64,000 bases of DNA from Nitrospira sp. (GTDB taxonomy: Bacteria; Nitrospirota; Nitrospiria; Nitrospirales; Nitrospiraceae): assembly GCA_030123625.1 (NCBI GenBank), contig CP126121.1, forward strand, positions 577,001 through 641,000. The letters are read 5' to 3'. Every line of letters starts with the position of its first letter. The first letter of the stretch is position 1. Both the position numbers and the translations under genes were made by a program. The notes under the pieces were generated by a model. The model was not told where the DNA came from, ran no database searches, and saw only the letters and a program-made list of their open reading frames with translations. This document shows, one piece after another, positions 34,325-59,222 of the stretch.

Positions 34325-34373
34325 TGGAGCCTCCCTTCTTGTCTGTTATGCCTGTGCTGCCCGCCAACGTTGC

Positions 34374-36037: not shown

Positions 36038-36059
36038 TTTGATTGAAATTCGTTATTCA

Positions 36060-36144
36060 TTAACGTTAAACGCGGTTTCGTTAATCGTGAATCGTTATTC
36101 GTTAAACACAGGAAACTTCTTGCGAATAACGATTCACGATTAAC
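36060..36144. repeat. 22-bp perfect inverted repeat in CGTTA-word spacer
   Basis: Arms at 36080-36101 and 36123-36144 are perfect 22-bp complements (GTTAATCGTGAATCGTTATT.. and its mirror) around a 21-nt loop. The right arm covers the stop codon of the debranching-enzyme gene. The flanks (36046-36079) are made of the same words: CGTTATTC, GTTAA, CGTTAA. The hairpin very probably ends or protects the leftward transcript. Confidence 0.75.
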
Positions 36145-40107: not shown

Positions 40108-40205
40108 GTGCGCACGCTTGTGATGTTTGTGTACTCACTATAGGGCCGGCAAGAGGACTCGTGCTGGGCAGCCCTAAAAGGAAACGACGGCGGAGGAACG
40201 TCGCA

Positions 40206-41321
40206 TTAAATACCGGCGAGAAATCCTTCCAAGCCGCCGATACGTCCACCGTCGGTTTTGAAAGCTTCTCCCTCGTCCCATACCCATTTGTCGTTGCCTG
40301 CCTCACCGACGAGCCGATAAACCGACACATAAGGACGGTGTGCCCGGACCGCCTCCTCAATGGCATTCCACGCCCGCTCACGATCGAGGGGATGAACCCA
40401 GTCACCGAGCGCCGGGGGAATTCCGCCGGATGAGTCCTCGAGCAGTCGGGGATTTTTGACGTCGATGAAGTCCAATGTCCGACTCGGTTCAAAGCGACAC
40501 CGGTACAACACGACATCTTTGTTATGCCTCAATACTGTGCTCGCAGGTCGATCCTTCGAGCCGCTTCCTTTCCTCGTTGAGGGCGACGTGGCGAGTTTGC
40601 GCATCACGATTGAATATCCGTGATGGCGCCTGAACCGATTTTGCAAGGGTTTGACTATCAGATGCATCAAGGACCATGAGCCATCTTGTCGCCGAACGGC
40701 TTCATCCCATGCCACTTCGCCCTTATGGCGCGCCCAGTGGAAGATTTGCCCCCAACGGGCGACGGGATTCATCTGTCCCGGAAAGATACGATAGACCGGC
40801 CGCTCTTTCATGTCGTCGTCCGTATAGCCGGTGAGCAGTTGAGCGCCCTGATTACATTCGGTCACACGTCCTCGAAGATCGCACAACACCACACCCGTGT
40901 TGTTCATTTCATCGACGAACGAATGGAGCTGCTGTCGGCTTGCGGCAAGCGCATCACAAGATTGAAAAAGCTGTCGCCTCTTTCGATCCACGTGCAGGCA
41001 TATCAAGCCGACGCCCGTGATCGTGACGACTCCGATCGCGCGATTCATGACGCCTGCCTGGAAATCTCCCAGCGGACCGATCCATAATCCTATCAATGTG
41101 AGCGCCAATGCCGCGGCGGTGACGGAAGCGATGGCACGCGCACCGTCCCACAACAAAGCAAGGACGATGGCAATTGAATAGGGCGCCCACGCGGAGATTC
41201 CATCAGGCATTCCCATATCAATCATGAAGGTGCCGAGCAGGATGAGGGCCAGCAGAAACCCGAATACGCCCGAACGCGCTTTCAGCCCGGCGTGTTTGAA
41301 ATCCGTCCGAATCAAGTCCAT
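40206..41321 (-). CDS. Membrane PAS-domain sensor without output domain
   Basis: About 371 residues. Three or four hydrophobic segments at about 18-105 form the membrane part (GVFGFLLALILLGTFMIDMG, then SIAIVLALLWDGARAIASV). A coiled linker leads to a PAS domain (FVDEMNNTGVVLCDLRGRV, NQGAQLLTGYTDDDM) and a second PAS-like region (RTLDFIDVKNPRLLED, DKWVWDEGEAF). There is no histidine kinase, GGDEF, EAL or chemotaxis domain, so it must pass a signal by contact or be a truncated receptor. I chose ATG 41321; the frame extends to a GTG at 41402. Confidence 0.65.
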   Translation of the reverse strand: MDLIRTDFKHAGLKARSGVFGFLLALILLGTFMIDMGMPDGISAWAPYSIAIVLALLWDGARAIASVTAAALALTLIGLWIGPLGDFQAGVMNRAIGVVTITGVGLICLHVDRKRRQLFQSCDALAASRQQLHSFVDEMNNTGVVLCDLRGRVTECNQGAQLLTGYTDDDMKERPVYRIFPGQMNPVARWGQIFHWARHKGEVAWDEAVRRQDGSWSLMHLIVKPLQNRFRRHHGYSIVMRKLATSPSTRKGSGSKDRPASTVLRHNKDVVLYRCRFEPSRTLDFIDVKNPRLLEDSSGGIPPALGDWVHPLDRERAWNAIEEAVRAHRPYVSVYRLVGEAGNDKWVWDEGEAFKTDGGRIGGLEGFLAGI

Positions 41322-41483
41322 GTGCTTGATGTTATCGGGACAGACGAAGAAATGAACTAGGGAAATGCCAGAGAATGAGGACGAATCGAGGGATGTCGGC
41401 ACATATTCATGGAAACATCATCGTACCTCCATAGGAATGGAACCGGTATCAATGCGATACGTATCGGATGACACATTCCTCCA

Positions 41484-42029
41484 TCACCTGAACTCGGATG
41501 CCGCAGTCCACAATCGTCTGACTTCTGATTGCCGGGGCATCGCGGCATTCGGCGTGACGGCTCCTACCGCATCCACCATCGAGAGCGCGCCGACCAGATC
41601 GCCTTTTGCATCCACGACAGGAGCATGACGGATGCGATGGTTCAGCATGGCGTCCATTGCATCGGCTAGAATGGCATTCTCTCGACATCGAACGACCATA
41701 CGCTTCTTGACCACCTCATAAAGTCCACCCGAATCACCGTGGCTCTCAGTGACGACATGGAGAGCCAAGTCATATTCTGTGAGCGCGAAGGCCGGCTCGT
41801 GCTCGAGGCATACAACCAGGATGGGCACGTTCCGGTTTTTGATGATGTCAATCGCTTCTTTGACGGTGATGACGGCCGTGGTGACAGCGACCTCATGGGT
41901 CATAATGTCTTTGACAAGGCGATCTTCACCGGGAAGGACTCTGTAGGCTTCGTCATTGGTGGACTCCCCGAAAATTCCGGAACGAGGGCGTGGGACCACA
42001 GTAAGCATTGAATGTTCATAACGAGTCAT
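41484..42029 (-). CDS. CBS-domain pair protein
   Basis: A protein of about 181 residues with two CBS motifs: KDIMTHEVAVTTAVITVKEA at about 40-95 and ILADAMDAMLNHRIRHAPVV at about 120-165. CBS pairs bind adenosyl ligands such as AMP or ATP and regulate partner proteins. The start is uncertain (ATG 42029, ATG 42008 or GTG 42044) because none has a good site. It is downstream of nothing obvious on the leftward strand, with 160 nt to the next gene start. Confidence 0.78.
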   Translation of the reverse strand: MTRYEHSMLTVVPRPRSGIFGESTNDEAYRVLPGEDRLVKDIMTHEVAVTTAVITVKEAIDIIKNRNVPILVVCLEHEPAFALTEYDLALHVVTESHGDSGGLYEVVKKRMVVRCRENAILADAMDAMLNHRIRHAPVVDAKGDLVGALSMVDAVGAVTPNAAMPRQSEVRRLWTAASEFR

Positions 42030-42193
42030 CAAGCCTGGCTGCACTAGGAGTACCCCGTATGATTCGTAATCGCGTTTACTTCTACTTCCGATTCGTGGCC
42101 TATAGACCTATAGAATCAACTAGAATCGACGGAGGACTTTCGCCGGTCGAAACCTCCGGCTCTCTATCGCGAAGCTCTCGCGCGAAGCTCTCG

Positions 42194-42771: not shown

Positions 42772-43941
42772 ATGAAGCGAGAGGGCGATAGGCTCACAAA
42801 CATGAGTGATGAAAGAAAAGATATGGGTTCTGAAACGCCGCTGCAAATGAAACCGCACACCATCGCCGTGGTGCGGGCGCTGCAATTAGGAGATCTATTA
42901 TGTTCTGTGCCGGCCTTCCGATCGCTACGGGCGGCGTTTCCCCAGGCTCACATCGCACTCATCGGCCTTCCTTGGTCCAAGGCTTTCGTCAACCGCTTTG
43001 GACGGTATCTCGATGAGTTCATCGAATTTCCAGGCTATCCCGGTCTTCCCGAACGGCCACCCGCGGTCGCCGCGATTCCTGATTTTTTAGCGACCATGCA
43101 GCGACGGAGATTTGACCTCGCGCTTCAAATGCATGGGAACGGCCGATACACCAACCAGCTTCTATCCCTTCTGGGTGCGAGAATGACGGCCGGTTTCGCT
43201 CACCCGGATGGTCATTGTCCTGACGAGCGCCTGTTCATGCCGTATCCCGACCATTTACCAGAGGCCGACCGACATGTGGCATTGCTGCAACATCTCGGCA
43301 TTCCGACACAGGGCAATCACTTGGAATTTCCGCTGAATAGGCATGATGTCGCAGCCTTTCGTGCCCTCCAAGCCTCGCACGGACTTCAACCGGGATCGTA
43401 TATCTGCCTCCATCCCGGAGGACGTGGTTCCTTACGCAGGTGGGCTCCGCATTTGTTTAGTCTCGTGGCGGATCGGCTGGTAAGAGCGGGATACCGCATC
43501 GTCATCACCGGTACGGAGGAGGAACGCCCGCTCGCAGAAGCCGTAATGGCTCACATGCGTGAAGAAGCGACCGACCTGGTAGGGCAAACGGATCTCGGCA
43601 CACTTGCGGTTCTATTAGATCGGTCGGCGATGTTGATTTCGAATGATACCGGTGTCTCCCATGTGGCCGCAGCGCTGCAAGTCCCAAGTGTCATCGTGTG
43701 CATCGGGTCCGATCCGCTCCGTTGGAGTCCGCAAAATACCCATCTGCATCGCGTGCTCATCGGCCAAGGCACGACGATCGACGATGTCATGGGGGCAGTC
43801 CATACACTTGAGCGCTCGAGTTCTCGCCGTCACCACACGAGGCTCGCGGCACCGTATCGAGGGCATGCCCTTTCCGATCTCTCTCAGGCTCCACGGCAGT
43901 CAACCGAGAGCCGACCTTCCAGCGCTTTCAGGTCCCTATGA
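42772..43941 (+). CDS. Glycosyltransferase family 9 (heptosyltransferase-like), first operon gene
   Basis: A 389-residue (as given) cytosolic GT-B enzyme. The N-terminal fold begins with HTIAVVRALQLGDLLCSVPAFR. The nucleotide-sugar part has HPGGRGSLRRWAPHLF and ISNDTGVSHVAAAL, both typical of GT9. Family enzymes transfer ADP-heptose or related sugars. The likely true start is ATG 42847 because the family N-terminus begins there; 42772 and 42802 are alternatives, all with weak sites. The C-terminal 40 residues are low-complexity and basic. Its stop overlaps the next ATG by 4 nt. A second GT9 is in the same operon. Confidence 0.82.
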   Translation: MKREGDRLTNMSDERKDMGSETPLQMKPHTIAVVRALQLGDLLCSVPAFRSLRAAFPQAHIALIGLPWSKAFVNRFGRYLDEFIEFPGYPGLPERPPAVAAIPDFLATMQRRRFDLALQMHGNGRYTNQLLSLLGARMTAGFAHPDGHCPDERLFMPYPDHLPEADRHVALLQHLGIPTQGNHLEFPLNRHDVAAFRALQASHGLQPGSYICLHPGGRGSLRRWAPHLFSLVADRLVRAGYRIVITGTEEERPLAEAVMAHMREEATDLVGQTDLGTLAVLLDRSAMLISNDTGVSHVAAALQVPSVIVCIGSDPLRWSPQNTHLHRVLIGQGTTIDDVMGAVHTLERSSSRRHHTRLAAPYRGHALSDLSQAPRQSTESRPSSAFRSL

Positions 43942-44933
43942 AGCCGCTTCGAATCTTCACATGGCACGTTCACGGCAACTACTTGTATTACCTGAGCCAA
44001 ACACCCCATGAATTGTATCTTCCGGTCGGCAAGTCGGGAATCGGGTATGCGGGAGCCGCACCCGGTTTTCCCTGGCCGACACGAGTCCATGACGTGCCGA
44101 TTGAAGAGATTCATCGGCTCGATGTCGATGTCATACTGTACCAATCACGCTCGCACTATCTGCGCGACCAATACGATATTTTGTCGGATCGGCAGCGCCG
44201 TCTCCCGGCTGTTTTCCTTGAGCATGATCCTCCTCAAGAACATCCGACCAATACACGTCACGTCGTCGATGATCCCACCATGTTGTTGGTCCACGTCACG
44301 CCATTCAATGAACTGATGTGGGACAACGGACAGACCCCTACGACGGTCATCGAACACGGTGTCGTCGTTCCGGACGATGTCCGGTATACCGGCGAGTCGG
44401 CGAAAGGTCTCGTCGTCGTGAACGGACTGCGCCGGCGCGGACGCCGCCTGGGCGCTGATGTGTTCGAGCGCGTGCGCCGAGAGGTGCCGTTAGACCTCGC
44501 CGGTATGGAATCGGAAGAATTGGGCGGGCTGGGAGAGATTTCACACGAAGCGCTGCCGGCATTGATGTGCCGCTATCGATTTCTCTTTAATCCGATTCGC
44601 TATACGAGTCTCGGCCTGTCGGTGTGCGAAGCCATGGCGCTCGGGGTGCCGATCGTCGGCCTTGCCACCACGGAAATGGCCACACTTGCCGATCAGGGAG
44701 GGCCTGGTTACGTCCATACCGATATCCGAAAGCTGATCGGCTATATGCAAAGACTCCTGTCCGATCCGCTCGAGGCTCAACGATTGAGCATTGAAACCCG
44801 TCGCGAGGGTCGGCGCCGTTTCAATATCGCGCGCTTCATCGACGATTGGAATGCCGCGTTAGCCGCAGCCGTTCGCCGTGGACGAACCGCACAGGAGCGA
44901 CCGCGTCGTCTTGAACCACTTCTAGCAGGATGA
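43938..44933 (+). CDS. GT-B glycosyltransferase
   Basis: A 331-residue protein. The N-terminal segment (RIFTWHVHGNYLYYLSQ, GFPWPTRVHDVP) and the C-terminal nucleotide-binding region (FNPIRYTSLGLSVCEAMALGVPIVGLA) identify a GT4-related glycosyltransferase. The E-x7-E-like motif is present in the last part (CEAMALG). It starts with an ATGA overlap after GT9, so it is translationally coupled. The donor and acceptor are unknown. It is probably one of four or five transferases that assemble the glycan. Confidence 0.78.
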   Translation: MKPLRIFTWHVHGNYLYYLSQTPHELYLPVGKSGIGYAGAAPGFPWPTRVHDVPIEEIHRLDVDVILYQSRSHYLRDQYDILSDRQRRLPAVFLEHDPPQEHPTNTRHVVDDPTMLLVHVTPFNELMWDNGQTPTTVIEHGVVVPDDVRYTGESAKGLVVVNGLRRRGRRLGADVFERVRREVPLDLAGMESEELGGLGEISHEALPALMCRYRFLFNPIRYTSLGLSVCEAMALGVPIVGLATTEMATLADQGGPGYVHTDIRKLIGYMQRLLSDPLEAQRLSIETRREGRRRFNIARFIDDWNAALAAAVRRGRTAQERPRRLEPLLAG

Positions 44934-44940
44934 GGAATAC

Positions 44941-46869
44941 ATGAAACGGCAAATCGCGTTGATCAGCGAACACGCGTCCCCCGTCAGTCTTCTCGGCGGT
45001 GTGGATTGCGGAGGACAGAACCTCTATGTGGGACAAGTTGCGAAAACGCTGGCCGCAATGGGATGCGACGTCGATGTGTTCACGAGGCGCGACAGCAACA
45101 TCCTTCCCGAGACCGCCGAATGGGTCAACGGCGTCCGGATCATTCATGTCCCGGCCGGTCCCCCCGCCTATGTCCGGAAGGAAGAATTGTTGCCGCACAT
45201 GAAGCCCTTTACGGAGTACATGTTGCAGTTCTGCCGCTGCCAACGGAAAGCCTACGATCTCATCCATGCGAATTTCTGGATGTCGGGACTGGTTGCGACA
45301 GAGCTGAAGAAACAGTTGGGGATCCCGTTCGTCATCACGTTCCATGCCTTGGGACGCGTCCGGCGACAATTTCAACGCCAAGCCGATGAATTCCCCGATG
45401 AGCGCTTCGAGATCGAGGATCGTCTTGTCGCGGAGGCCGACCACATCATCGCCGAAGCCCCTCAGGACGAGGAAGATCTGATTCGGTTGTACAACGCCGA
45501 TCCCGGGAATATCACGATGGTTCCCTGCGGATTCGACCCTACGGAGCTCGCTCCCATGAGCAAGACGCTGGCCCGCATCTCGCTCGGCCTTCCTCCGGAT
45601 GAGCGCGTCGTGCTCCATCTGGGCCGGTTGGTTCCGCGCAAGGGAACCGAAACGGTCGTCCGCGCCTTCGGACGACTTCTGCACAAGCATCGTGTACCGG
45701 CGCGTTTGCTGATCGTCGGCGGCGACCGTGATGATCCCGATCCTCGCGCCACCCCCGAAATCGCGCGATTACAGGCCATCGCCCGTGAAGAGAACATTGC
45801 CGATCAGGTGACGTTTGTCGGACGACGCGGGCGCGAAGTGTTGAAATACTACTACAGCGCCGCGGATATCTTCGTGACCACACCGTGGTATGAGCCGTTC
45901 GGCATCACTCCGTTGGAAGCGATGGCCTGCGGAACGCCCGTCCTCGGAGCCAACGTGGGCGGCATCAAATTTACGGTCCGTGACGGAGAAACCGGCTATC
46001 TGGTCGCCCCTCAAGATCCGGATCGACTCGCGGAAAAGATCGCGTATCTCTATGCCAATCCCAAGCTTCTCGGAGTATTCGGTCGCCAAGCCATTCAGCG
46101 GGTCAACGATTTGTTTACCTGGAGCAAGGTCGTCAAAGGATTGAAGTCCGTCTATGAGCAAATTCTGGCCGAGAAGCAACTGGCCGGTACCTATCGGACT
46201 GATGAGCGCGATCTGGTGAACGAACAGTTCGACACCGCCATCAAATCGCTTCAGGAAAACAAGCGCAGCCTTGTGGTGCCGATTCTGGAAGCGGCCCATG
46301 TGCTGAGCGACGCATTCGCGAGAGGCGGCAAAGCGCTCATCTGCGCCTCGCCCGGACAGTTCTCGACGGCGCAACTGCTGGCACACCGCCTGCTGGATAT
46401 TGTCGGAAGCGGACGTCCCGGTTTGCCCGCCATCGCGCTTGAGTCCACGCGCACAGCCGGTGAGACGGGAAAGGACTCCAGCCTCGCCGAACAAGTCAAA
46501 ATCTTTGCGCGTCCGGAAGATGTCGTCATCGGCATCGGGATCGATGGCATGAGCGCTCCATTATTGCGTGTATTCGAGACGGCCGCTCAGCGTGGGCTTC
46601 AGGCCGTCGCCATTGTGGGGAATGAAGCCGGCTCGGAACAGTTCGAGACGCACGCCACGCTGACGATTGCGTCTCCACACGGTCACGCGCGGGAGTCCGT
46701 CTATCACGCGCTTCTGCACATCTTGTGCGGCCTCGTGCGGCAGCGTGTGTCCGCCGCAGACCGTACGCCGACCGGCGGCACCGTGCATTCCATTGCGGAG
46801 CGCCCACGTCGCATGAGAAGCCAAACGACGCGGCGCCGTCTGCCCGCGCAACCTGCCGCCAAGAGGTGA
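44941..46869 (+). CDS. GT4 glycosyltransferase fused to degenerate SIS (GmhA-like) domain
   Basis: A 642-residue two-part protein. Residues 1-410 are GT4: GGVDCGGQNLYVGQVAKTL, VLHLGRLVPRKG at 225-235 and EPFGITPLEAMACGTP at 318-333, close to sucrose/glucosyl and MshA-type synthases. Residues 430-600 resemble phosphoheptose isomerase GmhA: GGKALICASPGQFSTAQLLA and DVVIGIGIDGMS replace the GmhA NGGSA and STSGNS loops. These losses suggest the domain is not a normal isomerase and may bind a sugar phosphate as a sensor. GAGG precedes the ATG at 7 nt from the previous stop. The basic tail (605-642) is low-complexity. Confidence 0.82.
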   Translation: MKRQIALISEHASPVSLLGGVDCGGQNLYVGQVAKTLAAMGCDVDVFTRRDSNILPETAEWVNGVRIIHVPAGPPAYVRKEELLPHMKPFTEYMLQFCRCQRKAYDLIHANFWMSGLVATELKKQLGIPFVITFHALGRVRRQFQRQADEFPDERFEIEDRLVAEADHIIAEAPQDEEDLIRLYNADPGNITMVPCGFDPTELAPMSKTLARISLGLPPDERVVLHLGRLVPRKGTETVVRAFGRLLHKHRVPARLLIVGGDRDDPDPRATPEIARLQAIAREENIADQVTFVGRRGREVLKYYYSAADIFVTTPWYEPFGITPLEAMACGTPVLGANVGGIKFTVRDGETGYLVAPQDPDRLAEKIAYLYANPKLLGVFGRQAIQRVNDLFTWSKVVKGLKSVYEQILAEKQLAGTYRTDERDLVNEQFDTAIKSLQENKRSLVVPILEAAHVLSDAFARGGKALICASPGQFSTAQLLAHRLLDIVGSGRPGLPAIALESTRTAGETGKDSSLAEQVKIFARPEDVVIGIGIDGMSAPLLRVFETAAQRGLQAVAIVGNEAGSEQFETHATLTIASPHGHARESVYHALLHILCGLVRQRVSAADRTPTGGTVHSIAERPRRMRSQTTRRRLPAQPAAKR

Positions 46870-46874
46870 CTGCG

Positions 46875-47609
46875 ATGACAATGACCGCGCCGTTACAGAA
46901 TACAGTAGCACTGGTCACGGGAGGGGCCCAAGGTTTGGGGGAAGCCCTGTGCCGAACACTGGGTCAAGACGGCGCCACGGTCGCCATTGCCGATATCCGT
47001 GGAGAGCAGGCCGAAGCACTGGCTTCCAAGTTGAACGCCGACGGTTTGCACACAGTGGCCGTACCGATGGACGTGACGGACGCGGACGCGGCTCAATCGG
47101 CCGTGCGTCGGTTCTCGGAACAGTACGGCAAGTTGGATATCCTCATCAACAACGCCGCCATCGACAAGACGGTGCCGGTTGAAGAATTGACCGTGTCGGA
47201 GTGGGACCGCATCATGGCGACAAACCTCCGCGGCCCCTTCGTCATGTCCAAACTGGCATTGGCGATGATGATCCCTCGCCGTACCGGCCATATCATCAAC
47301 ATCGTTTCAACAGCCGCCAAGCGAGCCTGGGCCAACGCCTCCGCCTATCATGCCAGCAAATGGGGACTCTTGGGCCTGAGCCATGCGCTTCATGTCGAGG
47401 CTCGATCGCATGGCGTGAAAGTCACGGCCGTCATCAGCGGTGGGATGCGCACTCCCTTTTTACTGGACCGATTCCCGGACATCGACCTCGCGACGCTCCA
47501 GGATCCGCAGAATGTGGCGGAGACCGTGCGATATCTCCTGAGACTGCCCGCCGACACGGTGGTCCCGGAGATGACCGTCATTCCGATGCGGGAGACCTCG
47601 TGGCCATGA
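46875..47609 (+). CDS. Short-chain dehydrogenase/reductase
   Basis: A 244-residue NAD(P)-dependent enzyme. Cofactor loop TGGAQGLG is at 15-22, NNAA at 92-95, and the catalytic triad Ser145, Tyr158, Lys162 is intact (YHASK). The start at ATG 46875 has GAGGTGA upstream; the frame extends to 46725 inside the previous gene but is not needed. Within the operon it most likely oxidises or reduces a sugar or sugar-nucleotide carbonyl. Its stop overlaps the next ATG (ATGA). Confidence 0.87.
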   Translation: MTMTAPLQNTVALVTGGAQGLGEALCRTLGQDGATVAIADIRGEQAEALASKLNADGLHTVAVPMDVTDADAAQSAVRRFSEQYGKLDILINNAAIDKTVPVEELTVSEWDRIMATNLRGPFVMSKLALAMMIPRRTGHIINIVSTAAKRAWANASAYHASKWGLLGLSHALHVEARSHGVKVTAVISGGMRTPFLLDRFPDIDLATLQDPQNVAETVRYLLRLPADTVVPEMTVIPMRETSWP

Positions 47610-48220
47610 GCCGAAAAGCCGTATTTTTGGATAAAGACGGCACATTGATCGAGAACCATCCGTTCGATCGCGACCCCGAACACATCGAATGGCTCCCTGG
47701 CACGATCGAAGGATTGCGTGTGTTGCACCACGCGGGCTATGCCCTGATCGTGGTGTCCAATCAGGGAGGAGTCGCGCAGGGGCGGTTCACGGTGGAAGAC
47801 CTGTTGCGCGAGGAGCTCGGTCTTCGAGCCGAGCTCGCAAAGTTCCACGTCCCTCTGACGGGTTATTACTACTGTCCCCATCATACGGAGGGCACCGTTC
47901 CCCCATTCAACATCGACTGCTATTGTCGAAAACCCAATCCCGGCCTGCTGATTCAGGCCGCCGATGAGCTCCATGTGAATCTGACGCATTCATGGATGAT
48001 CGGCGATATCCTGCACGACGTTGAAGCCGGCCGCGCGGCCGGCTGCCGCACCGTCTTACTCACGAACGGCAATGAAACCGAATGGAATCTCACCCCCTTG
48101 CGTTGGCCTAACTTGATTGCCGACGAGATGTTCGAAGCGGCCCGGCTCATCACGTTCACCGATCTGATTCAGACCGACGAACGACCGTGCTTGCAAGATG
48201 ACGGATCGAAAGAGCCATGA
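47606..48220 (+). CDS. gmhB: D-glycero-D-manno-heptose-1,7-bisphosphate 7-phosphatase-like HAD
   Basis: A 204-residue HAD phosphatase. Catalytic Asp9 and Asp11 lie in FLDKDGTLI; the GmhB-type zinc site is Cys90, His92, Cys105 and Cys107 in CPHHTEG...DCYCRKPNPG. GmhB removes the 7-phosphate in ADP-heptose formation; related HAD-IIIA proteins act on other sugar phosphates. A canonical GmhA and an HldE are not in the window, so the exact role is open. The start overlaps the SDR stop by 4 nt, and its stop overlaps the next ATG. Confidence 0.85.
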   Translation: MSRKAVFLDKDGTLIENHPFDRDPEHIEWLPGTIEGLRVLHHAGYALIVVSNQGGVAQGRFTVEDLLREELGLRAELAKFHVPLTGYYYCPHHTEGTVPPFNIDCYCRKPNPGLLIQAADELHVNLTHSWMIGDILHDVEAGRAAGCRTVLLTNGNETEWNLTPLRWPNLIADEMFEAARLITFTDLIQTDERPCLQDDGSKEP

Positions 48221-49359
48221 CGGCGATTGTCGCTGATCGACCGAGCGTCCGCCTCTGGAGGCAGACCAGCAGAATTCTCTGCGTGCGGCTCGATGCGCTC
48301 GGCGATGTCATCATGACGGGGCCGGCGCTGCGTGCGCTTAAGCAATCGGCTCCGAACCGTCATATTACCCTTCTTACCTCCGCCGCCGGCGTCCATGCGG
48401 GCCGTCTGATGCCTTGTATCGACGATATCTGGTCGTACGAAGCTCCATGGATGAAAGGGGCCCCTGAGGGGCAGTCGGCTGCGGCGGATCGTGCGCTGAT
48501 TTCCCGCCTACGTCATGGAGCATTCGATGCCGCCGTTCTGTTCACCGTGTACAGCCAAAATCCCCTTCCGGCCGCCTTGATGTGCTGGCTGGCCGATATC
48601 CCGCTCCGTGTCGCGCATTGTCGGGAGAACCCCTACCATTTGCTCACGGATTGGATTCCAGAACCCGAGCCGACGTCTTATATTCGCCATGAGGTCCGAC
48701 GTCAGCTGGATCTTGTCAGCCAAATCGGCGCCGAAGTCGTGAATGAGCGCCTCTTCTTACAAATTCCCGGCTCCGCCTTCCACAATCTCGACGAAACGTT
48801 GGGACCGCTCCGGACAAAGATCGCTGAAGCCGTGATCATTCACGCCGGTGCGACCGCAGCCAGCCGCCGCTATCCCGCCGAGCAATTCGCCATTGCGGCC
48901 GACCGGCTGGCTCTCACTTGGAAAGGGCCGATTATTTTTACCGGCGTCGAGGGCGAGCATCCCTTGGTCGAGTCGATCCGCGCTCGCATGAATGTCCCGA
49001 CGTACTCGCTCGTCGGTCGACTGCAGCTCCCGGAGTTGGCCGCCTTGTTGAGCCGCGCGCGTGTCCTGATCTCAAACAATACCGGCGCGGTCCATGTCGC
49101 CGCTGCCGTGGGCACACCGGTCGTCGATCTGTATGCCTTGACCAACCCGCAGCATACGCCGTGGCACGTGCCGAGTCGCGTCTTATTCCACGATGTCGCT
49201 TGCAAGTTTTGCTACAAGAGTACATGCCCGCAGGAGCACCATGACTGCCTGCGTTTGGTGACACCGGACGAAATCGTCGACGCCGCAGTGGACCTGTTGG
49301 GCCTCAGCTCAACGTCACCCTCCGAAGAAGGAGTACACCTTGTACACACTCGGTCTTAA
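48217..49359 (+). CDS. Glycosyltransferase family 9, second copy
   Basis: A 380-residue GT-B enzyme: ILCVRLDALGDVIMTGPALRAL at the N-terminus, AVIIHAGATAASRRYPAEQF and LISNNTGAVHVAAAVGTP in the nucleotide-binding part, then a Cys-rich stretch (CKFCYKSTCPQEHHDC) of the kind found in some heptosyltransferases. It overlaps the phosphatase gene by 4 nt and its own 3' end overlaps the carbamoyltransferase start by 20 nt. It is not a close copy of the first GT9. The cysteine cluster could bind zinc. Confidence 0.83.
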   Translation: MTAIVADRPSVRLWRQTSRILCVRLDALGDVIMTGPALRALKQSAPNRHITLLTSAAGVHAGRLMPCIDDIWSYEAPWMKGAPEGQSAAADRALISRLRHGAFDAAVLFTVYSQNPLPAALMCWLADIPLRVAHCRENPYHLLTDWIPEPEPTSYIRHEVRRQLDLVSQIGAEVVNERLFLQIPGSAFHNLDETLGPLRTKIAEAVIIHAGATAASRRYPAEQFAIAADRLALTWKGPIIFTGVEGEHPLVESIRARMNVPTYSLVGRLQLPELAALLSRARVLISNNTGAVHVAAAVGTPVVDLYALTNPQHTPWHVPSRVLFHDVACKFCYKSTCPQEHHDCLRLVTPDEIVDAAVDLLGLSSTSPSEEGVHLVHTRS

Positions 49360-51073
49360 TGCGGCGTTCCATGACTCCTCGGCTTGCTTGGTCCATGATG
49401 GGATGGTCGTCGCCGCGGCCGAGGAAGAGCGGTTTACGCGGATCAAGCATGCCAAGCGTCCTATTCCGTTCAGCACCTATGAATTGCCCTTTCATGCCGT
49501 TGCCTTCTGTCTTCAGCGCGCCGGCATTCACTTGCGGGATGTCGATCACGTCGCCTATGCGTACGATCCGATGCCCAAGCTGGGCGACCATGCAGGTGCG
49601 GTATCCCTCACGTTGCCGATGGAGCCGAGCGCCCATCCGGTCGCGGGTGAATGGGAATCACCCTGGGATCCGCTTTTTCTTTCCTCGATCGTGAATGCTC
49701 CACGACACTTGGTGTCGGGCGCTCCGCATCATCTACACGATCGGTTCGCCGGTGTCACAGCCCCGGGGCCCTATCGGTGGCACTGGGTCGATCATCATGA
49801 AGCCCATGCAGCCAGCGCATTTTTGCCTTCACCCTTCGAGAGTGCCGCCGTGCTGACGTTGGACGGCAGAGGGGAACAAGCCACCACCACCTACCATATC
49901 GGGGAAGGCCGTGGATTGCGACGGCTCGGCCAGGTCGACATGCCTCACTCGCTGGGACTGCTCTATGAGGAACTGACCACCTACTTGGGGTTTCTGCACT
50001 CGTCCGATGAATACAAGGTCATGGCCCTCGCTTCCTATGGGAAACCGAAGTTTAAACAGCCCTTCCGAGCCATTGTGGAAGTCCATGGCGACGGCCAATA
50101 TCGGATTCTCCCTCACCGATTCGAAACCATGTTCGGCCCGGCACGCGCGCCCGGCTCTCCATTCGAGCAACGACATTACGACTTGGCGCGGTCGCTCCAG
50201 GAAGTGCTGGAAGAGACGGCATTAGAGTTGGCGGAGTGGTTGCACCGGACGTCGGGCTCTCCACACTTATGTATGGCCGGAGGCGTGGCGTTGAACTGCG
50301 TCATGAATGCCTCTCTCCGTGACCGCGGGCCGTTTCAATCGATATGGGTGCAGCCGGCGGCCGGCGATGCCGGTACCGCGATGGGCGCTGCGCTCGCGGT
50401 GGACGCCGCACAGCGGCAGGCGGTCGGCCCACGAGCATTTCGTATGGAGCATGCGTTCTGGGGACCTTCGTACAGCGACGAGGACATCGAATCCGTATTG
50501 CGCCGCGCCAAGCTTCCGTTCCGCCGTTTAACCGATGTCGAGGGGGAGACCGCCGCGTTATTGGCACGCGATCATATTCTCGGCTGGTTTCAAGGCGCGA
50601 TGGAATTCGGCCCTCGCGCATTGGGAAGCCGGTCGATCCTTGCTTCTCCGATCAACCCCTCCATGCAGGATCGATTGAACGACATCAAAGACCGCGAGGA
50701 TTTTCGGCCGGTGGCGCCCGTCGTGTTGGAGGAGGCGGCCGGGCAATGGTTTGAGGGAGCGGAGCGTTCGCCGTTCATGCTCTTTACGTATCAGGTGCGG
50801 CCTGATCGGGCGAATCGAATTCCCGCCGTCCGACACGTCGACGGATCGGCGCGGGTGCAGACGATCACACGTGAGCAACACCCGCGCTATTACGAGCTGA
50901 TCAAAGCGTTTGAAGCGAAGACCGGCGTGCCGATCTTGGTCAACACCTCTTTCAATACGAGAGGTGCGCCGATCGTCTGTACACCTCGCGAAGCCGTTGA
51001 AGCCTATAGTAGTTCTCCGTTGGACGCGCTGGTGATCGGGCCGTTCCTCCTGACCAAATCACTGGCCGCTTAA
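49340..51073 (+). CDS. Carbamoyltransferase (NodU/CmcH family)
   Basis: A 577-residue enzyme. The N-terminal Kae1-like half begins LGLNAAFHDSSACLV and contains VDHHEAHAASAF (metal/adenylate-binding histidines) and LTLDGRGE. The C-terminal YrdC-like part has GPRALGSRSILASP, DIKDREDFRPVAPVV and LVNTSFNTRGAPIVC. Family members carbamoylate hydroxyls on sugars and antibiotics using carbamoyl phosphate and ATP. The start is TTG 49340, supported by AAGGAG 7 nt upstream and by the family N-terminus. It overlaps GT9. The acceptor is probably the operon's glycan. Confidence 0.88.
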   Translation: MYTLGLNAAFHDSSACLVHDGMVVAAAEEERFTRIKHAKRPIPFSTYELPFHAVAFCLQRAGIHLRDVDHVAYAYDPMPKLGDHAGAVSLTLPMEPSAHPVAGEWESPWDPLFLSSIVNAPRHLVSGAPHHLHDRFAGVTAPGPYRWHWVDHHEAHAASAFLPSPFESAAVLTLDGRGEQATTTYHIGEGRGLRRLGQVDMPHSLGLLYEELTTYLGFLHSSDEYKVMALASYGKPKFKQPFRAIVEVHGDGQYRILPHRFETMFGPARAPGSPFEQRHYDLARSLQEVLEETALELAEWLHRTSGSPHLCMAGGVALNCVMNASLRDRGPFQSIWVQPAAGDAGTAMGAALAVDAAQRQAVGPRAFRMEHAFWGPSYSDEDIESVLRRAKLPFRRLTDVEGETAALLARDHILGWFQGAMEFGPRALGSRSILASPINPSMQDRLNDIKDREDFRPVAPVVLEEAAGQWFEGAERSPFMLFTYQVRPDRANRIPAVRHVDGSARVQTITREQHPRYYELIKAFEAKTGVPILVNTSFNTRGAPIVCTPREAVEAYSSSPLDALVIGPFLLTKSLAA

Positions 51074-51086
51074 TCGGAGCTGTTCT

Positions 51087-52121
51087 ATGAAGGATAATTC
51101 TGATTCCAGCTCGGCAGTCGCCATGGATTCCATCAGCTCTCAGGCGGGCCGGATACTGATGAGCGTGGTCATTCCTACCTTCGATCGCCCCGATCTTCTG
51201 CGACGCTGTCTCGAATCACTGATCGTGCAAACCATGGACCCTTTGTCGTTCGAAATCATCGTCGTCGCAGATGGACCGTCCAAGTCGACTCGGAAAGTCG
51301 TCACCGAGCTATGTGACGTTACCTCATCGCCGGATATGCGATATCTTGAATTACCAATCCATCGCGGCCCGGCAGCCGCTCGAAATCTCGGCTGGAAATC
51401 GGCACGCGGAACGGTCATCGCCTTTACCGACGATGATTGCATCGCACAACCGACCTGGCTCGAAGCCGGTTGGGCAGGCTTTGAAGACCACCGCGTCTCA
51501 GGTCTTTGGGGACGCATCGTCGTTCCGATCCCCGCACAACCGACCGACCATGAGTGGAATACGAAACAATTGGAACAATCTCCGGGAGCGACGGCGAACT
51601 GTTTCTACCGCAAAACGGCATTGGAAGCGGTTCGCGGTTTCGATGAACGCTTTACCGCAGCCTGGCGAGAGGACAGCGATTTACAGTTCATGTTGCTGAA
51701 GGGCGGGCACCATATGATGCCTTGCCAAGGGGCCATCGTGTTTCATCCGGCTCGTCAGGCACCATGGGGCATCAGCCTTCGTCAGCAGCGCAACAACCTC
51801 TACAACGCGTTGCTGTACAAAAAGCACCCGAGGCTCTATCGGTCACGGATTCAGCAACAGCCGCCCTGGCGCTATTATGCGACCGTGGCGGCCTTGATGC
51901 TCACCGTCGCGGCAGCCGTCGTTCAGTGGACACCAGGAATCCGGTTCGGCGTACTGTCGTGGCTGGGAATGACGGCTTGGTTGTGCGCGCGACGTTTGCA
52001 TTCGACGTCCCGCGAGCCGAGTCACATCCTTGAAATGGCGGTGACATCGGCGCTGATTCCTCCGTTGGCCGTGTTTTGGCGGCTCCAAGGAGCATGGCGG
52101 TTTCAGGTCGCCTTCTTGTAA
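51087..52121 (+). CDS. Family 2 glycosyltransferase with C-terminal membrane segments
   Basis: A 344-residue GT-A protein. The N-terminal domain has MSVVIPTFDRPDLLRRCLES, FTDDDCIAQPTWL (metal-binding DDD) and REDSDLQFMLL. Two hydrophobic segments near 258-280 and 285-300 suggest membrane attachment. GGAGC precedes the ATG. It transfers a nucleotide-activated sugar to a growing chain; specificity unknown. Gap to the previous gene is 13 nt. Confidence 0.83.
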   Translation: MKDNSDSSSAVAMDSISSQAGRILMSVVIPTFDRPDLLRRCLESLIVQTMDPLSFEIIVVADGPSKSTRKVVTELCDVTSSPDMRYLELPIHRGPAAARNLGWKSARGTVIAFTDDDCIAQPTWLEAGWAGFEDHRVSGLWGRIVVPIPAQPTDHEWNTKQLEQSPGATANCFYRKTALEAVRGFDERFTAAWREDSDLQFMLLKGGHHMMPCQGAIVFHPARQAPWGISLRQQRNNLYNALLYKKHPRLYRSRIQQQPPWRYYATVAALMLTVAAAVVQWTPGIRFGVLSWLGMTAWLCARRLHSTSREPSHILEMAVTSALIPPLAVFWRLQGAWRFQVAFL

Positions 52122-52130
52122 CGCACGGCG

Positions 52131-52721
52131 ATGCCGCCAGTTCATCTCACGATCATGAGTGTCGAAAGTCCGAAATCCTGTGCACCGACCAATCGACTCA
52201 ACGTCGGGTGTGGGCCTCATCACATGCCTGGCTGGCTCAATGCCGATCTCAATGTAGGTCCTGGGATTGACCTGGTAGGCGACATCCGAACAGGGCTCAG
52301 TCTCGATACGGGCAGCATCCATTATGTAGTGGCCATGCACATGCTTCAGGACTTGCCCTATCCCGACATCCCTGTCGCCCTACGAGAGTTCAAGCGCCTC
52401 CTCATTCCCGGTGGGGTGCTGAGACTGGGATTGCCCGATTTGGACAAAGCCATTCGGGCCTACATCGCCAGGGATCCGAGCTATTTCCATGTGCCGGACG
52501 GTGATGCCCGTGCAATCGGCACGAAACTCATCACGCAAATTATCTGGTATGGGTCCGTGCGGACGCCGTTCACGTTCGACTGCATCGCGGAACTCCTTGA
52601 GCGCGAACGGTTTCGCCATGTGCGACGCTGCGCATTCGGTCAAACCGAGAGTGTCTATCCGGACATTGTGCAACTTGACAACCGGCCTCGAGAAAGTCTG
52701 TTCGTCGAGGCTATGAAATAG
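52131..52721 (+). CDS. SAM-dependent methyltransferase-like protein
   Basis: A 196-residue protein with a class I methyltransferase core: NVGCGPHHMPGWLNADL (motif I), GDIRTGLSLDTGSIHYVVAMHML, and REFKRLLIPGGVLRLGLPDL (post-motif). The cofactor loop is present, but the methyl acceptor region is short, so the domain may be catalytically weak or act on a small sugar substrate. The ATG at 52131 is used; ATG 52156 is an alternative. Spacing to neighbours is 9-11 nt. Confidence 0.75.
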   Translation: MPPVHLTIMSVESPKSCAPTNRLNVGCGPHHMPGWLNADLNVGPGIDLVGDIRTGLSLDTGSIHYVVAMHMLQDLPYPDIPVALREFKRLLIPGGVLRLGLPDLDKAIRAYIARDPSYFHVPDGDARAIGTKLITQIIWYGSVRTPFTFDCIAELLERERFRHVRRCAFGQTESVYPDIVQLDNRPRESLFVEAMK

Positions 52722-52732
52722 GGGTTCTTTCT

Positions 52733-53422
52733 ATGATGTCGTCTATGGTTCCCTCACGTCTCCGAATGCTCATCATCTCGCCGCACTGCGACGATGCCGT
52801 ATTCGCCTGCGGATCCCTGCTCGAAACGTATCCGGGCTCCACTGTCGTGACGGTCTGTGCCGAAGGTCCCACGCTGAACGAGTCTCTCACGGAATGGGAC
52901 CGCTCGAGCGGATTCCAAGTCGGCGACGATGTCATGGCTCTCCGGCGCGGAGAAGATGCGCAGGCCTTGTCACAGCTGGGCGCGCATGCCCTCTGGTTGT
53001 CGTTTTACGACAGTCAATATCGAAACCCGGCGTCTTGTTCCGACGTGGTACGCGCCTTGTCCGTGGTGGTCGAGACCGTCTCTCCGCATAGCCTATTCAT
53101 CCCCATGGGTCTTTTTCACAACGACCATCGAGCGACATCGGAGGCCTGTCTTGGATTGAGAAGCTGGTATCCAGAATTCGCATGGTATTTCTATGAGGAT
53201 GCTCTGTACCGGCATATCCCCGATCTCCTTTCAGAACGTCTTGCGCATCTCCGGATGCGCGGCATTCGCGCGCGACGGGTCAATCTCGGCCCTTTGTCGA
53301 GCGAACACAAACGGCCGGCTGTTCAATGCTATGGCTCGCAACTGCGGGCGCTCACCACCCCGGGACGGCCCGGTTATGAGGATGTGTTTCTTCCCGAACG
53401 ATATTGGATGATTCATTCGTGA
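52733..53422 (+). CDS. PIG-L family deacetylase
   Basis: A 229-residue LmbE/PIG-L protein. The zinc motif PHCDDA is at 17-22 (PHxDD, Cys instead of the common Pro) and the second histidine pair is H129-x2-H132 in FHNDHRATSEA. Enzymes of this family remove acetyl groups from GlcNAc-containing glycans or pseudodisaccharides. The start at ATG 52733 is one of three nearby ATGs. Its stop overlaps the next gene's start by one base (TGATG). Confidence 0.85.
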   Translation: MMSSMVPSRLRMLIISPHCDDAVFACGSLLETYPGSTVVTVCAEGPTLNESLTEWDRSSGFQVGDDVMALRRGEDAQALSQLGAHALWLSFYDSQYRNPASCSDVVRALSVVVETVSPHSLFIPMGLFHNDHRATSEACLGLRSWYPEFAWYFYEDALYRHIPDLLSERLAHLRMRGIRARRVNLGPLSSEHKRPAVQCYGSQLRALTTPGRPGYEDVFLPERYWMIHS

Positions 53423-54357
53423 TGGAAGGCGGCGATCTTCACTCCTCTGGCGATCGACGTGACGATCGAATGACCGTCGTCGTCTTGACGCATAACCGCG
53501 CGCATGAGGTGCTGCGGACGATCGGTCACCTTGTACGGCTTCCGGAAGATCCGACGATCATCGTCATGGATAATGCGTCTTCCGATGGGACCTCTTGGCA
53601 GATCGCAGATCGGTATCCGGCTGTGCAGGTCTTGCGAATGGACCGCAATATGGGCGCTGCGGCGCGCAATGCCGGGATTCGGCATGCGACGACGAAATAT
53701 GTCGCCCTTTGCGACGATGATACCTGGTGGACGGCCGGATCGCTTGGGTCGGCGGCTGACGCCATGGACCGCCACGCGCAAGTGGCGGTCGTCACCGCCC
53801 GAGTGCTCGTGGGTGCCGACCAGCACGAAGATCCGACATGCCGAGCCATGGCGGAGAGTCCGCTTCCCCGCTCCGCCGATTTACCGGGACCGGCGATTCT
53901 CGGGTTTTTGGCAGGCGCATCGATGGTGCGCCGTTCCGCTTTCTTGCAGGTCGGGGGATTTGAACCGCGTTTCTTCCTCGGAGGAGAAGAGGCATTGGTC
54001 GCCTATGACTTGATCGAAGCCGGATGGTTGATGCTGTATCTCGCCGACGCGACCGTGCGGCATATGCCGTCACCGCATCGAGACGCCGCGCTGCGCCGGC
54101 GTCACTTGGTCCGCAATGCTCTGTGGCTCGCATGGATGCGCCGGCCCTATGCGTCCGCCTGGCGGGAAACCAGGCGCGCATTGGAACGATTGAAGGCGGA
54201 CCCTGCGGCTCGAAACGGCTTTCTTGAAGCAATGAGGGGGCTGCCATGGGTTTGGGGCAGGCGGCGCGCTGTTTCTTCCCACGTCGAAACCCTCATCCAA
54301 ATGCTGGAGCCTGCATCCGAGGTCCGTGGCTCGGCGTTCGTGAAACGTGAAGCGTGA
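53422..54357 (+). CDS. Family 2 glycosyltransferase, last operon gene
   Basis: A 311-residue GT-A protein: MTVVVLTHNRAHEVLRTIGHL, IVMDNASSDGTSWQIAD, VALCDDDTWWTAGSLGS and FFLGGEEALVAYDLIEAGW. No membrane segments. I chose ATG 53422 at the TGATG junction with the PIG-L gene; a TTG 18 nt upstream is less likely. The last codons run into a repeat-rich spacer, and the C-terminal VKREA is formed by its words. It probably adds an early or terminal sugar; specificity unknown. Confidence 0.82.
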   Translation: MEGGDLHSSGDRRDDRMTVVVLTHNRAHEVLRTIGHLVRLPEDPTIIVMDNASSDGTSWQIADRYPAVQVLRMDRNMGAAARNAGIRHATTKYVALCDDDTWWTAGSLGSAADAMDRHAQVAVVTARVLVGADQHEDPTCRAMAESPLPRSADLPGPAILGFLAGASMVRRSAFLQVGGFEPRFFLGGEEALVAYDLIEAGWLMLYLADATVRHMPSPHRDAALRRRHLVRNALWLAWMRRPYASAWRETRRALERLKADPAARNGFLEAMRGLPWVWGRRRAVSSHVETLIQMLEPASEVRGSAFVKREA

Positions 54358-54542: not shown

Positions 54543-56783
54543 TCACGAGATACGCTGCTTGTCGTTCGAAAAATCCGCGCACCGAGAAAGCCATCGTCGC
54601 AATCCCCACACGGCACTCACTATCGCAATGGCCGAGACGGCCAAGACGAGATAGCTTCCAAGACCGGGAGCGTTCAGTGTGGTCGCCACTTGGTCCATGA
54701 ACACGGCGATGGCCAATAGACCGGGCAATTCGCCGAGGACAGTCCCCAACAGGTAGTCTCTCGTGCGAATATGCGTGGCTCCGGCGATCATATTGACCAC
54801 CGTGAACGGGGCGACCGGAATGACCCGCACGGCAACGACAGCCAACACGCCTTTGGTGGCCAAATTCCGGCTCAAACGATACAGACGAGCGGACCAACGC
54901 TCCACCAGCTGCCGTCCCATCAGGCGTCCGAGCCCGAACGTCACCAGCGCGCTGAGCGTCATTCCGATAAAGCTGTACACGAACCCATGCAGCGGACCGA
55001 ACGTCAGCACAGTGGCCGCGACAAGCACCGTGACCGGCGCAACGACGAGTCCTCCGATCACGAACGATCCTACGACGATGAACGGAGCCGTCGGGCTGCG
55101 CGCGAACTCGTCCGCATAGGCCATGAGCCGCGACAGTTCCATCCACTCTCCCAGCGGCGACCACCGCCATGCGGCCGCCAGCGCCGCCACAATCAGCAGC
55201 ACCCCCACACCCATGATCATCTGCCGATGCACCGAGGAGCGATTCTCAGGAGGGTACAGTTGCATCTCATAGGGTCCGCTCGGATCGATGAACTCATCGT
55301 CCGGCACCATCCCGTCGACGTCCTCCGGAATCTGCTTGTCGAACACGTCAAGCGTCCGATCCTTTCCACGGAGCGCCTCTACGGCGGTGATCAACCTTGG
55401 ATGGCGGCGCAGCGCCTGCGCCACCTCTTCCGGGGAGACATCCAAATGCTCGCCGAGCAGACGATTGCGGAATGCCGCGATTCGCTCCTCCACCTCGGGA
55501 TGACCCGCCGCATGAACGGCCAGATCACATTCGGTATCGAACCCCAGACTGCGATTGCTCAAATTCGCCGAGCCGATGCGCACGGAGATATCATCGATGA
55601 CACAGACCTTGCTGTGCACGCTGATGCAACGTTGCTTCGCATCGGGCACACGGGGATAGTACAGCGCCAGCCGGTGATAGCGGTCGACGTTGCGGAGAAG
55701 TGTGAGCACCCTTCCCCGCAAGACATCCATCGTATGTTGCTCCAGCCATCCATCGCTGCTGGGATGCAGAATCATGACGATATCGGGCCCGTCGGCGCGT
55801 CCCAACAAGTCCGTCAAAACCTGGGCCAAGACTTTAGACGTAAAATACTGGGTTTCGATATAAATGAATCGCCGCGCGGCCCGTAATAGATCAATCAACA
55901 ACCGCTCAATCTCACGCACCGGTGGTCGGCCTGCAGCGGCCGGCATCGTGCGCGCAATGGCGACCTGAATCTCCCGCAGATCGGGCACGACCGATACCGG
56001 CCAGGGATCATGGACTCTCTTGGATGGAGACGGGGCCAGCCGTTCCCCGGTCGCAGCTTCCCAACGTGCCCTCGCCAATTGTTCCAACGATTCCGCCGCA
56101 TTGCCGTCGACCACCATCTGAACATCGTGGAACGGACGGCAAGGCGCGTCGTCGGACAGGATTCTCCTGTCCGGATGATCCATGCGGTGCTCGGGCGTAT
56201 CCCATCGACATTGAGCAAAGTCCAACCCTCCGACAAATGCGACGGCTCCGTCCACGACCACGACTTTTTGATGTTGGGAGGCTCCGACCGGGTGTGTGTC
56301 GTCCTTCCAGAAATGGAGACGCCGGTGCGCCAGGAGCCGTTGAGGAAGCCACCACTGCCGCTCCTTGAAATAGATCACATGGAAGTCCCACACCAGAACA
56401 TAAATATGCAGCTTCTTTCGCCGCGCGAGAAGAGCGCCGAGAAACGGACCCAGGCGATCCGGATATCCGTCTGATTCGCGACCGATCATCATGCGGATAC
56501 GCGAATCGAAATCCCATCCCAACATGTAGATGGAGTGCTCGGCCGCAAGAGCCGCCTCGCGAAAGGCGGCAAAGTACGCGTGACCATCGATCAAGAATGC
56601 CGCGCGTCGCGCCCGCTCCACACGCCAGCAATTCCATCCCGGCTTAAACAGACTATTGCCTTTGGGGATGCGCCTTTCGAGAGCAGAAGACGCCTGATCG
56701 ATAGGCGTTCCGCTGTCGCTCTCGACGCTATCGCTCTCGAAATAAGATGGAACGCGAAGAGCCTCATCGCGATCGGGTTTCAT
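54543..56783 (-). CDS. Phospholipase D-like protein fused to VTT/DedA-type membrane domain
   Basis: A 746-residue protein. Two HKD sites define the PLD part: His171-Lys173-Asp178 in HQKVVVVDGAVAFVGGLD, and His390-Lys392-Asp397 in HSKVCVIDDISVRIGSANLSNRS. After a linker (about 480-535), residues 540-735 contain about six hydrophobic segments with the VTT/SNARE-associated pattern (FGPLHGFVYSFIGMTLSAL, FGLGRLMGRQLVERW, RVIPVAPFTVVNMIAGA). It may hydrolyse or transfer phosphatidyl groups and link to lipid scrambling or flipping. It is transcribed toward the glycan operon. Confidence 0.87.
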   Translation of the reverse strand: MKPDRDEALRVPSYFESDSVESDSGTPIDQASSALERRIPKGNSLFKPGWNCWRVERARRAAFLIDGHAYFAAFREAALAAEHSIYMLGWDFDSRIRMMIGRESDGYPDRLGPFLGALLARRKKLHIYVLVWDFHVIYFKERQWWLPQRLLAHRRLHFWKDDTHPVGASQHQKVVVVDGAVAFVGGLDFAQCRWDTPEHRMDHPDRRILSDDAPCRPFHDVQMVVDGNAAESLEQLARARWEAATGERLAPSPSKRVHDPWPVSVVPDLREIQVAIARTMPAAAGRPPVREIERLLIDLLRAARRFIYIETQYFTSKVLAQVLTDLLGRADGPDIVMILHPSSDGWLEQHTMDVLRGRVLTLLRNVDRYHRLALYYPRVPDAKQRCISVHSKVCVIDDISVRIGSANLSNRSLGFDTECDLAVHAAGHPEVEERIAAFRNRLLGEHLDVSPEEVAQALRRHPRLITAVEALRGKDRTLDVFDKQIPEDVDGMVPDDEFIDPSGPYEMQLYPPENRSSVHRQMIMGVGVLLIVAALAAAWRWSPLGEWMELSRLMAYADEFARSPTAPFIVVGSFVIGGLVVAPVTVLVAATVLTFGPLHGFVYSFIGMTLSALVTFGLGRLMGRQLVERWSARLYRLSRNLATKGVLAVVAVRVIPVAPFTVVNMIAGATHIRTRDYLLGTVLGELPGLLAIAVFMDQVATTLNAPGLGSYLVLAVSAIAIVSAVWGLRRWLSRCADFSNDKQRIS

Positions 56784-59179: not shown

Positions 59180-59222
59180 CAGGATGTTGAGGGCCTCAAA
59201 CACATTCAGAAAGGAGAGACCT

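Follow-up and report, generated by a model that had tools for sequence, protein, structure and literature searches.

Related systems

The nearest described relatives of the operon analysed here are the cwg operon of Streptomyces coelicolor and, in chemistry, the lipopolysaccharide (LPS) core cluster of Pseudomonas. The vancomycin-induced cwg operon, SCO6179–6190, is described (Hong et al. 2002, as cited by PMC6767563; PMC5839063) as having a carbamoyltransferase, a GT2, a GmhB-type HAD phosphatase, two GT9 enzymes and an MshA-like GT4, together with a phosphoheptose isomerase (cwgH) and HldE (cwgI). The Pseudomonas cluster, PA4996–PA5012, encodes heptosyltransferases, several other glycosyltransferases, the putative heptose carbamoyltransferase WapO, a PIG-L protein and MsbA (PMC8005017). 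None of the papers on Burkholderia, Nitrospira, cyanobacterial heptose or stress that we consulted names a cluster such as the one described below.

Layout of the operon

The window, a stretch of 64,000 nucleotides from a Nitrospira genome, contains eleven open genes at 42772–54357, all on the + strand and spaced by −20 to +13 nt:

42772–43941, +, GT9a, glycosyltransferase family 9 (heptosyltransferase type); Pfam PF01075, E 1.8e-22; in 57 of 64 full-length related loci
43938–44933, +, GT4b, glycosyltransferase family 4, not assigned to any curated subfamily; PF13692, E 1.9e-8; in 63 of 64 loci, adjoining GT4m in most relatives
44941–46869, +, GT4m–SIS fusion; PF00534, E 1e-41, and C-terminal SIS_2, PF13580, E 4.9e-8; below the NCBIfam MshA cut-off; residues 1–415 are a GT4 of the MshA/sucrose-phosphate-synthase group and about 421–610 a decayed GmhA-like SIS domain
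46875–47609, +, classical SDR oxidoreductase; NCBIfam SDR models; in 30 of 64 loci
47606–48220, +, HAD phosphatase of GmhB type (D-glycero-D-manno-heptose 1,7-bisphosphate 7-phosphatase type); PDB 3l8e GmhB, E 2.1e-36, motifs aligned
48217–49359, +, GT9b, WaaF-like heptosyltransferase; TIGR02195, 121.1 bits against a cut-off of 134.6; in 59 of 64 loci
49340–51073, +, O-carbamoyltransferase (CTase) of the NodU/CmcH/TobZ superfamily; N- and C-terminal domains PF16861, E 4.9e-71, and PF02543, E 3.5e-61; TTG start with AAGGAG upstream
51087–52121, +, GT2a, glycosyltransferase family 2; PF00535, E 5.6e-29; in 40 of 64 loci; hydrophobic segment at about 267–285 by hydropathy
52131–52721, +, methyltransferase-like protein; PF08241, E 2.6e-5, a weak call; 59% identical in genome G052
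52733–53422, +, PIG-L family deacetylase; PF02585, E 1.5e-12; 50% identical in G052
53404–54357, +, GT2b, glycosyltransferase family 2; PF00535, E 4.3e-26; TTG start uncertain

The start of the HAD gene was taken as the ATG at 47606, which overlaps the SDR by 4 nt, and the mechanical ORF start at 47201 was set aside. Its product keeps the Zn cysteines and the DxDGT motif, and scores 141 bits (141.1) with NF006506 against a cut-off of 178. ORF and domain searches bear out the first-pass annotation in its eleven co-directional genes, their domains and gaps of at most 13 nt. Two of its calls need qualifying: the methyltransferase is present but weakly matched, and the SIS domain is present without the catalytic-site motifs of GmhA.

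How closely does this locus resemble cwg? It has the same enzyme set (GT9, GT4, GT2, carbamoyltransferase and GmhB-type HAD), and its spacing suggests that the eleven genes are co-transcribed. The 12-gene Streptomyces locus L007 has SIS in place 8 and HldE in place 9, matching the published positions of cwgH and cwgI. However, the sequences are distant (42% identity for GT4m, 46% for CTase) and the gene order differs. Cwg has HldE and a separate, intact SIS, whereas our operon has a fused SIS lacking the motifs, no HldE, and an additional PIG-L and methyltransferase; an epimerase occurs in the cwg-like locus, and an SDR only in ours. In the CTase tree the cwg-like enzymes sit on the side of the cluster (support 100), although a branch length of 2.65 makes the grouping unsure; it is unsure too in the GT4m tree, which joins long branches.

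Conservation of the module

Is the grouping of these genes more than local accident? We retrieved 64 full-length related loci by similarity to a single gene and scored six partner families (GT9a, GT4b, HAD, GT9b, CTase and GT2a). At least four of the six are present in 57 of the 64 loci, and all six in 33. As controls we drew 40 stretches of 20 kb at random from 19 genomes (the operon's own, G052 and 17 other cluster carriers). At the thresholds used none of the 40 holds any operon family, so the grouping is not due to chance. The divergence of the gene families is also correlated (Mantel r 0.65–0.97), with none of 200 shuffles equally high. The first-pass annotation had proposed searching other genomes for the same gene order and had named conservation across unrelated genomes as support; the gene content proves to be conserved across unrelated genomes, in shuffled versions. 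We conclude that the operon is a real eleven-gene module, the core of which recurs, shuffled, across bacteria of about nine phyla.

Carbamoylation, PIG-L and the methyltransferase are add-ons to this core. Neither CTase nor GT2a was found within 10 kb of any of the 11 full-length cyanobacterial loci, and the core product therefore need not be carbamoylated. The methyltransferase-like gene occurs in none of the 64 loci, only in this operon and in G052. PIG-L was seen only in the clusters of two Nitrospira-like genomes (the host and G052) and of Burkholderiales, where it is also paired with GT2b; the de-N-acetylation foreseen in the first reading is thus a side feature. The carbamoylation of a glycan, also foreseen there, is supported: most of CTase can be aligned with O-carbamoyltransferases of solved structure (novobiocin carbamoyltransferase in the PDB, E 6.9e-94; TobZ, E 1.1e-88). 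NodU, which carbamoylates Nod factor, belongs to the same superfamily, but CTase was rejected as a NodU equivalog, at 199 bits against the NF041651 cut-off of 1000 and with no Nod genes.

Probable supply of heptose

What sugar does the cluster handle? In many relatives the cluster contains a full HldE, and the GT4 is fused to a GmhA-type SIS domain that is intact. RfaE2, the heptose nucleotidyltransferase, exceeds its curated cut-off in 49 of 50 cluster-bearing genomes. In one cyanobacterial order it does so in 17 of 100 genomes, and among control genomes in 3 of 14. Within that order, GT4m and an RfaE2 above 200 bits (a high-scoring HldE) coincide in 4/4 versus 1/96. The operon's HAD, for its part, is closest to GmhB. 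Judged from these sequences, the chemistry of the cluster is that of heptose, as had been proposed from GT9 and GmhB. The best curated models for the two operon GT9 enzymes score below cut-off, and GT9 enzymes can use donors other than heptose.

The absence of HldE from the operon's eleven genes, already recorded, stands, but the enzyme lies in-cluster in many relatives and its activities are encoded elsewhere in the host. Outside the operon the host has RfaE2 (192.5 bits) and RfaE1 (385.5 bits), both above cut-off, a GmhA (206.5 bits) 3 bits below its cut-off and a further GmhB (184.4 bits) above its own. It thus encodes the enzymes expected of a user of the ADP-heptose pathway: GmhA, just short of the cut-off, RfaE1/RfaE2 and a GmhB. 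No HldD epimerase above cut-off was found, so that the heptose may stay D,D.

The SIS domain of the operon reads CASPGQFSTAQLLAHRL where the intact relatives, in alignment, have CGNGGSAA.AQHFA.E; GNGGS and the following His/Glu motif are missing and QE.H has gone as well, leaving it without the GNGGS motif and the conserved His, Glu and Gln of phosphoheptose isomerases. Across the loci, 30 have both intact SIS and HldE, 37 have neither and 6 are mismatched, for which the raw Fisher p of 1e-13 ignores kinship. A test on independent pairs gave 5 supported pairs and a sign test that was not significant, the independent events being few.

Proposed product and alternatives

We consider it probable, from gene content and conservation, that the operon makes a carbamoylated, heptose-containing, LPS-core-like envelope oligosaccharide. 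A short oligosaccharide would be built in the cytoplasm with ADP-D-glycero-D-manno-heptose from a route of the GmhA–HldE–GmhB type. In many relatives the SIS, HldE and HAD enzymes of the cluster itself would provide this donor; here it would come from the host's GmhA, RfaE1 and RfaE2 and a GmhB, either the operon HAD or the other genomic copy. Both GT9 enzymes would transfer heptose, and the GT4 and GT2 pairs other sugars. CTase would O-carbamoylate the glycan, plausibly at a heptose, as is proposed for WapO in Pseudomonas LPS; PIG-L would free an amine on an N-acetylhexosamine, and the methyltransferase may act on the end product. The sequences themselves establish the gene content and its conservation, the common divergence of the families, the association with HldE, and the lack of HldE and of the SIS motifs in this operon. 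We infer each of these transfer steps, the glycosyltransferase donors, the carbamoylation site, the lipid anchor, how the product is exported and whether it acts in envelope stress.

How would such a product leave the cytoplasm? The operon's eleven genes include no exporter. Like an LPS core, the oligosaccharide would not need a Wzy polymerase, and an ABC exporter like MsbA could flip it. Such a protein, carrying a receiver domain and found mainly in Burkholderiales, is the only transporter among the identified recurrent neighbour families (80 loci, near flanks). As a dedicated exporter it was rejected, since the two Nitrospira-like genomes match it only at the general ABC level (32–38% identity). 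Neighbours of stress type (hemerythrin, ferritin-like, CBS, PRC, Mn catalase) occur at 27 of 84 cluster loci versus 2 of 40 controls, with queries drawn partly from those same loci; in matched genomes the figures are 2/17 versus 2/40, and we dropped the link.

Might the operon instead merely decorate the organism's ordinary LPS core, its heptosyltransferases and carbamoyltransferase acting on a lipid A–Kdo core as in Pseudomonas? The Pseudomonas cluster groups a similar mix of heptosyltransferases, carbamoyltransferase, PIG-L and several glycosyltransferases, with WapO likened by description only (PMC8005017), and the host's heptose supply does lie outside the operon. Lipid A–core transport, ligase and heptose kinases, present in Pseudomonas, are absent from the eleven genes, which add the MshA-like GT4–SIS fusion and the SDR. 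Against this explanation, Chloroflexota have the core genes too, as do Streptomyces in distant form, several of the loci being MAGs, and these lineages are generally held to be free of LPS. Moreover, only 1 of 58 other genomes of the genus has the cluster, which is therefore not the ordinary core of the genus. We regard this explanation as unlikely.

Still less probable is a soluble or small glycoconjugate (a redox thiol, osmolyte or secondary metabolite), in which an MshA-like GT4 and PIG-L would form an amino-sugar conjugate. GT4m does belong to the MshA/sucrose-phosphate-synthase group, CTase resembles antibiotic carbamoyltransferases, and the operon lacks polymerase and flippase. The parallel with mycothiol and bacillithiol (MshA/MshB, BshA/BshB) drawn in the first-pass annotation reduces, however, to the shared fold classes GT4 and PIG-L: GT4m scores 298.8 bits with MshA against a cut-off of 462.5 and 110.5 with BshA against 273.7, the operon has no cysteine ligase, most clusters lack PIG-L, and six is a high number of glycosyltransferases for so small a molecule. 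A repeat unit of a capsule or exopolysaccharide, leaving the cell through Wzx/Wzy or ABC machinery encoded elsewhere, would suit the several GT2 and GT4 enzymes and the heptose found in some capsules, but is similarly improbable given that the MsbA-like protein is the sole transporter among the recurrent families identified in the near flanks.

Significance

ADP-heptose is usually seen as a precursor of LPS and as a signal to innate immunity. More tentatively than for the envelope oligosaccharide itself, we suggest that the cluster may represent a widespread, unrecognised, non-LPS heptose glycan of the envelope, often carbamoylated, in diderms and monoderms of about 9–11 phyla, with the module moving between them; the in-cluster GmhA and HldE would be lost where ADP-heptose is already made, and this operon may have been caught in mid-loss. 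If so, the heptose-glycan cluster in Cyanobacteria, Chloroflexota and others would constitute a second, broadly spread use of ADP-heptose, and would set the cwg operon, induced by vancomycin and long uncharacterised, in context.

Gene content and conservation of the operon

What does the operon encode? All eleven genes predicted in the first-pass annotation were borne out; they are co-directional, lie at 42772-54357 and are spaced by -20 to +13 nt. By Pfam and NCBIfam their products are, in order, GT9, GT4, GT4 plus SIS (GT4m), classical SDR, GmhB-type HAD, GT9, carbamoyltransferase (CTase), GT2, a weak methyltransferase, PIG-L and GT2. Translation of the HAD begins at ATG 47606, giving a 4-base overlap with the SDR stop, and that of the CTase at TTG 49340, preceded by AAGGAG. 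Third-position G+C (0.58-0.73, versus 0.62-0.71 in neighbouring genes) gives no sign of recent import. A gene for a fusion of a phospholipase D-like protein with a VTT membrane domain (54543-56783) converges on the end of the operon. Neighbours of the stress type at 33800-42044 and 59184-59846 encode a ferritin-like protein, a CBS-domain protein and two hemerythrins; a glycogen debranching enzyme and a protein of the alpha-amylase family are encoded there too.

The HAD aligned with solved GmhB structures, zinc cysteines included, and the CTase with TobZ and the novobiocin O-carbamoyltransferase. Nearest to GT4m were MshA-type structures and Tll1590, which we take to be of the sucrose-phosphate-synthase type; as an MshA, GT4m scored below the cut-off.

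Does the gene set recur in unrelated genomes? Using an alignment of five sequences restricted to the GT4 part, we fetched 80 loci from one-genome-per-species contigs, neighbours playing no role in selection, and mapped the window's proteins onto them. It does recur. Among the 64 loci that span 21 kb or more we counted GT4b in 63, GT9b and HAD in 59 each, GT9a in 57, GT2a in 40, CTase in 37, SDR in 30, HldE in 26, GT2b in 13, PIG-L in 12 and the methyltransferase in none. At least four of these six core partners (GT9a, GT4b, HAD, GT9b, CTase, GT2a) were found in 57/64 and all six in 33/64, versus 0/40 random 20-kb stretches (17 cluster-bearing and two Nitrospira-like genomes) with any panel family, the score thresholds of mapping and controls having been set after the first map had been seen. 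By record titles the loci span Cyanobacteriota, Chloroflexota, Pseudomonadota, Bacteroidota, Planctomycetota, Myxococcota, Verrucomicrobiota, Acidobacteriota and Ca. Roizmanbacteria, although several come from MAGs, so that a single occurrence may reflect a binning error. Between gene families, pairwise distances were correlated (Mantel r 0.65-0.97; 0/200 shuffles equally high), which fits joint inheritance, part of the correlation stemming from host phylogeny alone.

The cluster comprises two blocks, GT4b-GT4m(SIS)-SDR-HAD-HldE-GT9b and CTase-GT2a-GT9a, the second inverted or apart in many Bacteroidota and some Burkholderiales. Cyanobacterial loci carry block one plus GT9a, with a carbamoyltransferase within 10 kb in 0/11. 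PIG-L together with GT2b was observed in clusters only of Burkholderiales and the two Nitrospira-like genomes, the methyltransferase only in the latter. In several Burkholderiaceae an MsbA-like ABC exporter adjoins the cluster; its C-terminus is fused to a response-regulator receiver domain (L005:10801-13488, L090:6894-9617), and it is a possible flippase for the cluster product.

The host genome is a single contig of 4,691,675 bases, of which the window is 577001-641000. A GT4-SIS gene (E <= 1e-60) was found in 1/58 congeners and 0/40 more distant relatives. That congener, G052, has all eleven genes in identical order at 50-78% identity, but only 33% in the SIS part, and its scanned flanking genes differ from those of the window's operon. 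A second host carbamoyltransferase (G000:C1:3391688-3392257) lies on the other, SxtJ/DUF5989-associated, tree branch.

Predicted supply of heptose

Many related clusters contain HldE; the eleven genes do not. Its absence, noted at first pass, thus stands for the operon but not for the host, which elsewhere has RfaE1 (385.5 bits) and, at another site and about 2 kb apart, RfaE2 (192.5 bits) and a GmhA match (206.5 bits, 3 under cut-off). The host also has a second GmhB-type HAD above cut-off; no HldD epimerase above cut-off was found there. An RfaE2 domain exceeded the curated cut-off in 49/50 cluster-bearing genomes. In the order of Tolypothrix, GT4m occurs in 4/100 genomes, one of them the search centre, and RfaE2 exceeds 200 bits in 4/4 of these versus 1/96 others. 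HldE and GmhA-like genes also occur in Chloroflexota (L015, L018, L033 and other loci), where to our knowledge LPS is not expected.

How does the SIS domain behave? In alignments, relatives with HldE keep its phosphoheptose-isomerase motifs, which are absent in G052 and the window (CASPGQFSTAQLLAHRL versus CGNGGSAA.AQHFA.E). Among 73 scorable loci, 30 have intact SIS and HldE, 37 neither, and 6 are mismatched. The GT4m tree implies at least 12 changes of HldE and 10 of SIS; with just 5 independent supported pairs on it, the sign test was not significant. We infer that the initial steps once encoded in the window's operon may have been lost because ADP-heptose would come from the host. The SIS domain of a Bryobacteraceae locus (L027, contig ending early) also lacks GNGGS.

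Likeness to known clusters

The best-matched described analogue in chemistry is the Pseudomonas LPS core cluster, in which WapO is a putative heptose carbamoyltransferase and which also holds a PIG-L protein and MsbA (PMC8005017). The first-pass annotation found no polymerase in the operon. This holds and fits a predicted core-type oligosaccharide, which requires none and would account for the gap.

A plasmid locus of Streptomyces (L007) comprises twelve genes, with phosphoheptose isomerase in place 8 and HldE in place 9. By gene order and annotation we equate it with S. coelicolor cwg (SCO6179-6190), where cwgH is a phosphoheptose isomerase, cwgI a bifunctional synthase/transferase, expression is vancomycin-induced via sigma-E, and a cell wall glycan product is only predicted (PMC6767563; PMC5839063). 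In the carbamoyltransferase tree, the cwg-like enzymes join those of the clusters to the exclusion of five others (support 100, long branch).

Judged by these comparisons of sequence, the heptose-glycan module, its product predicted, is real, widely conserved and often lost or transferred.
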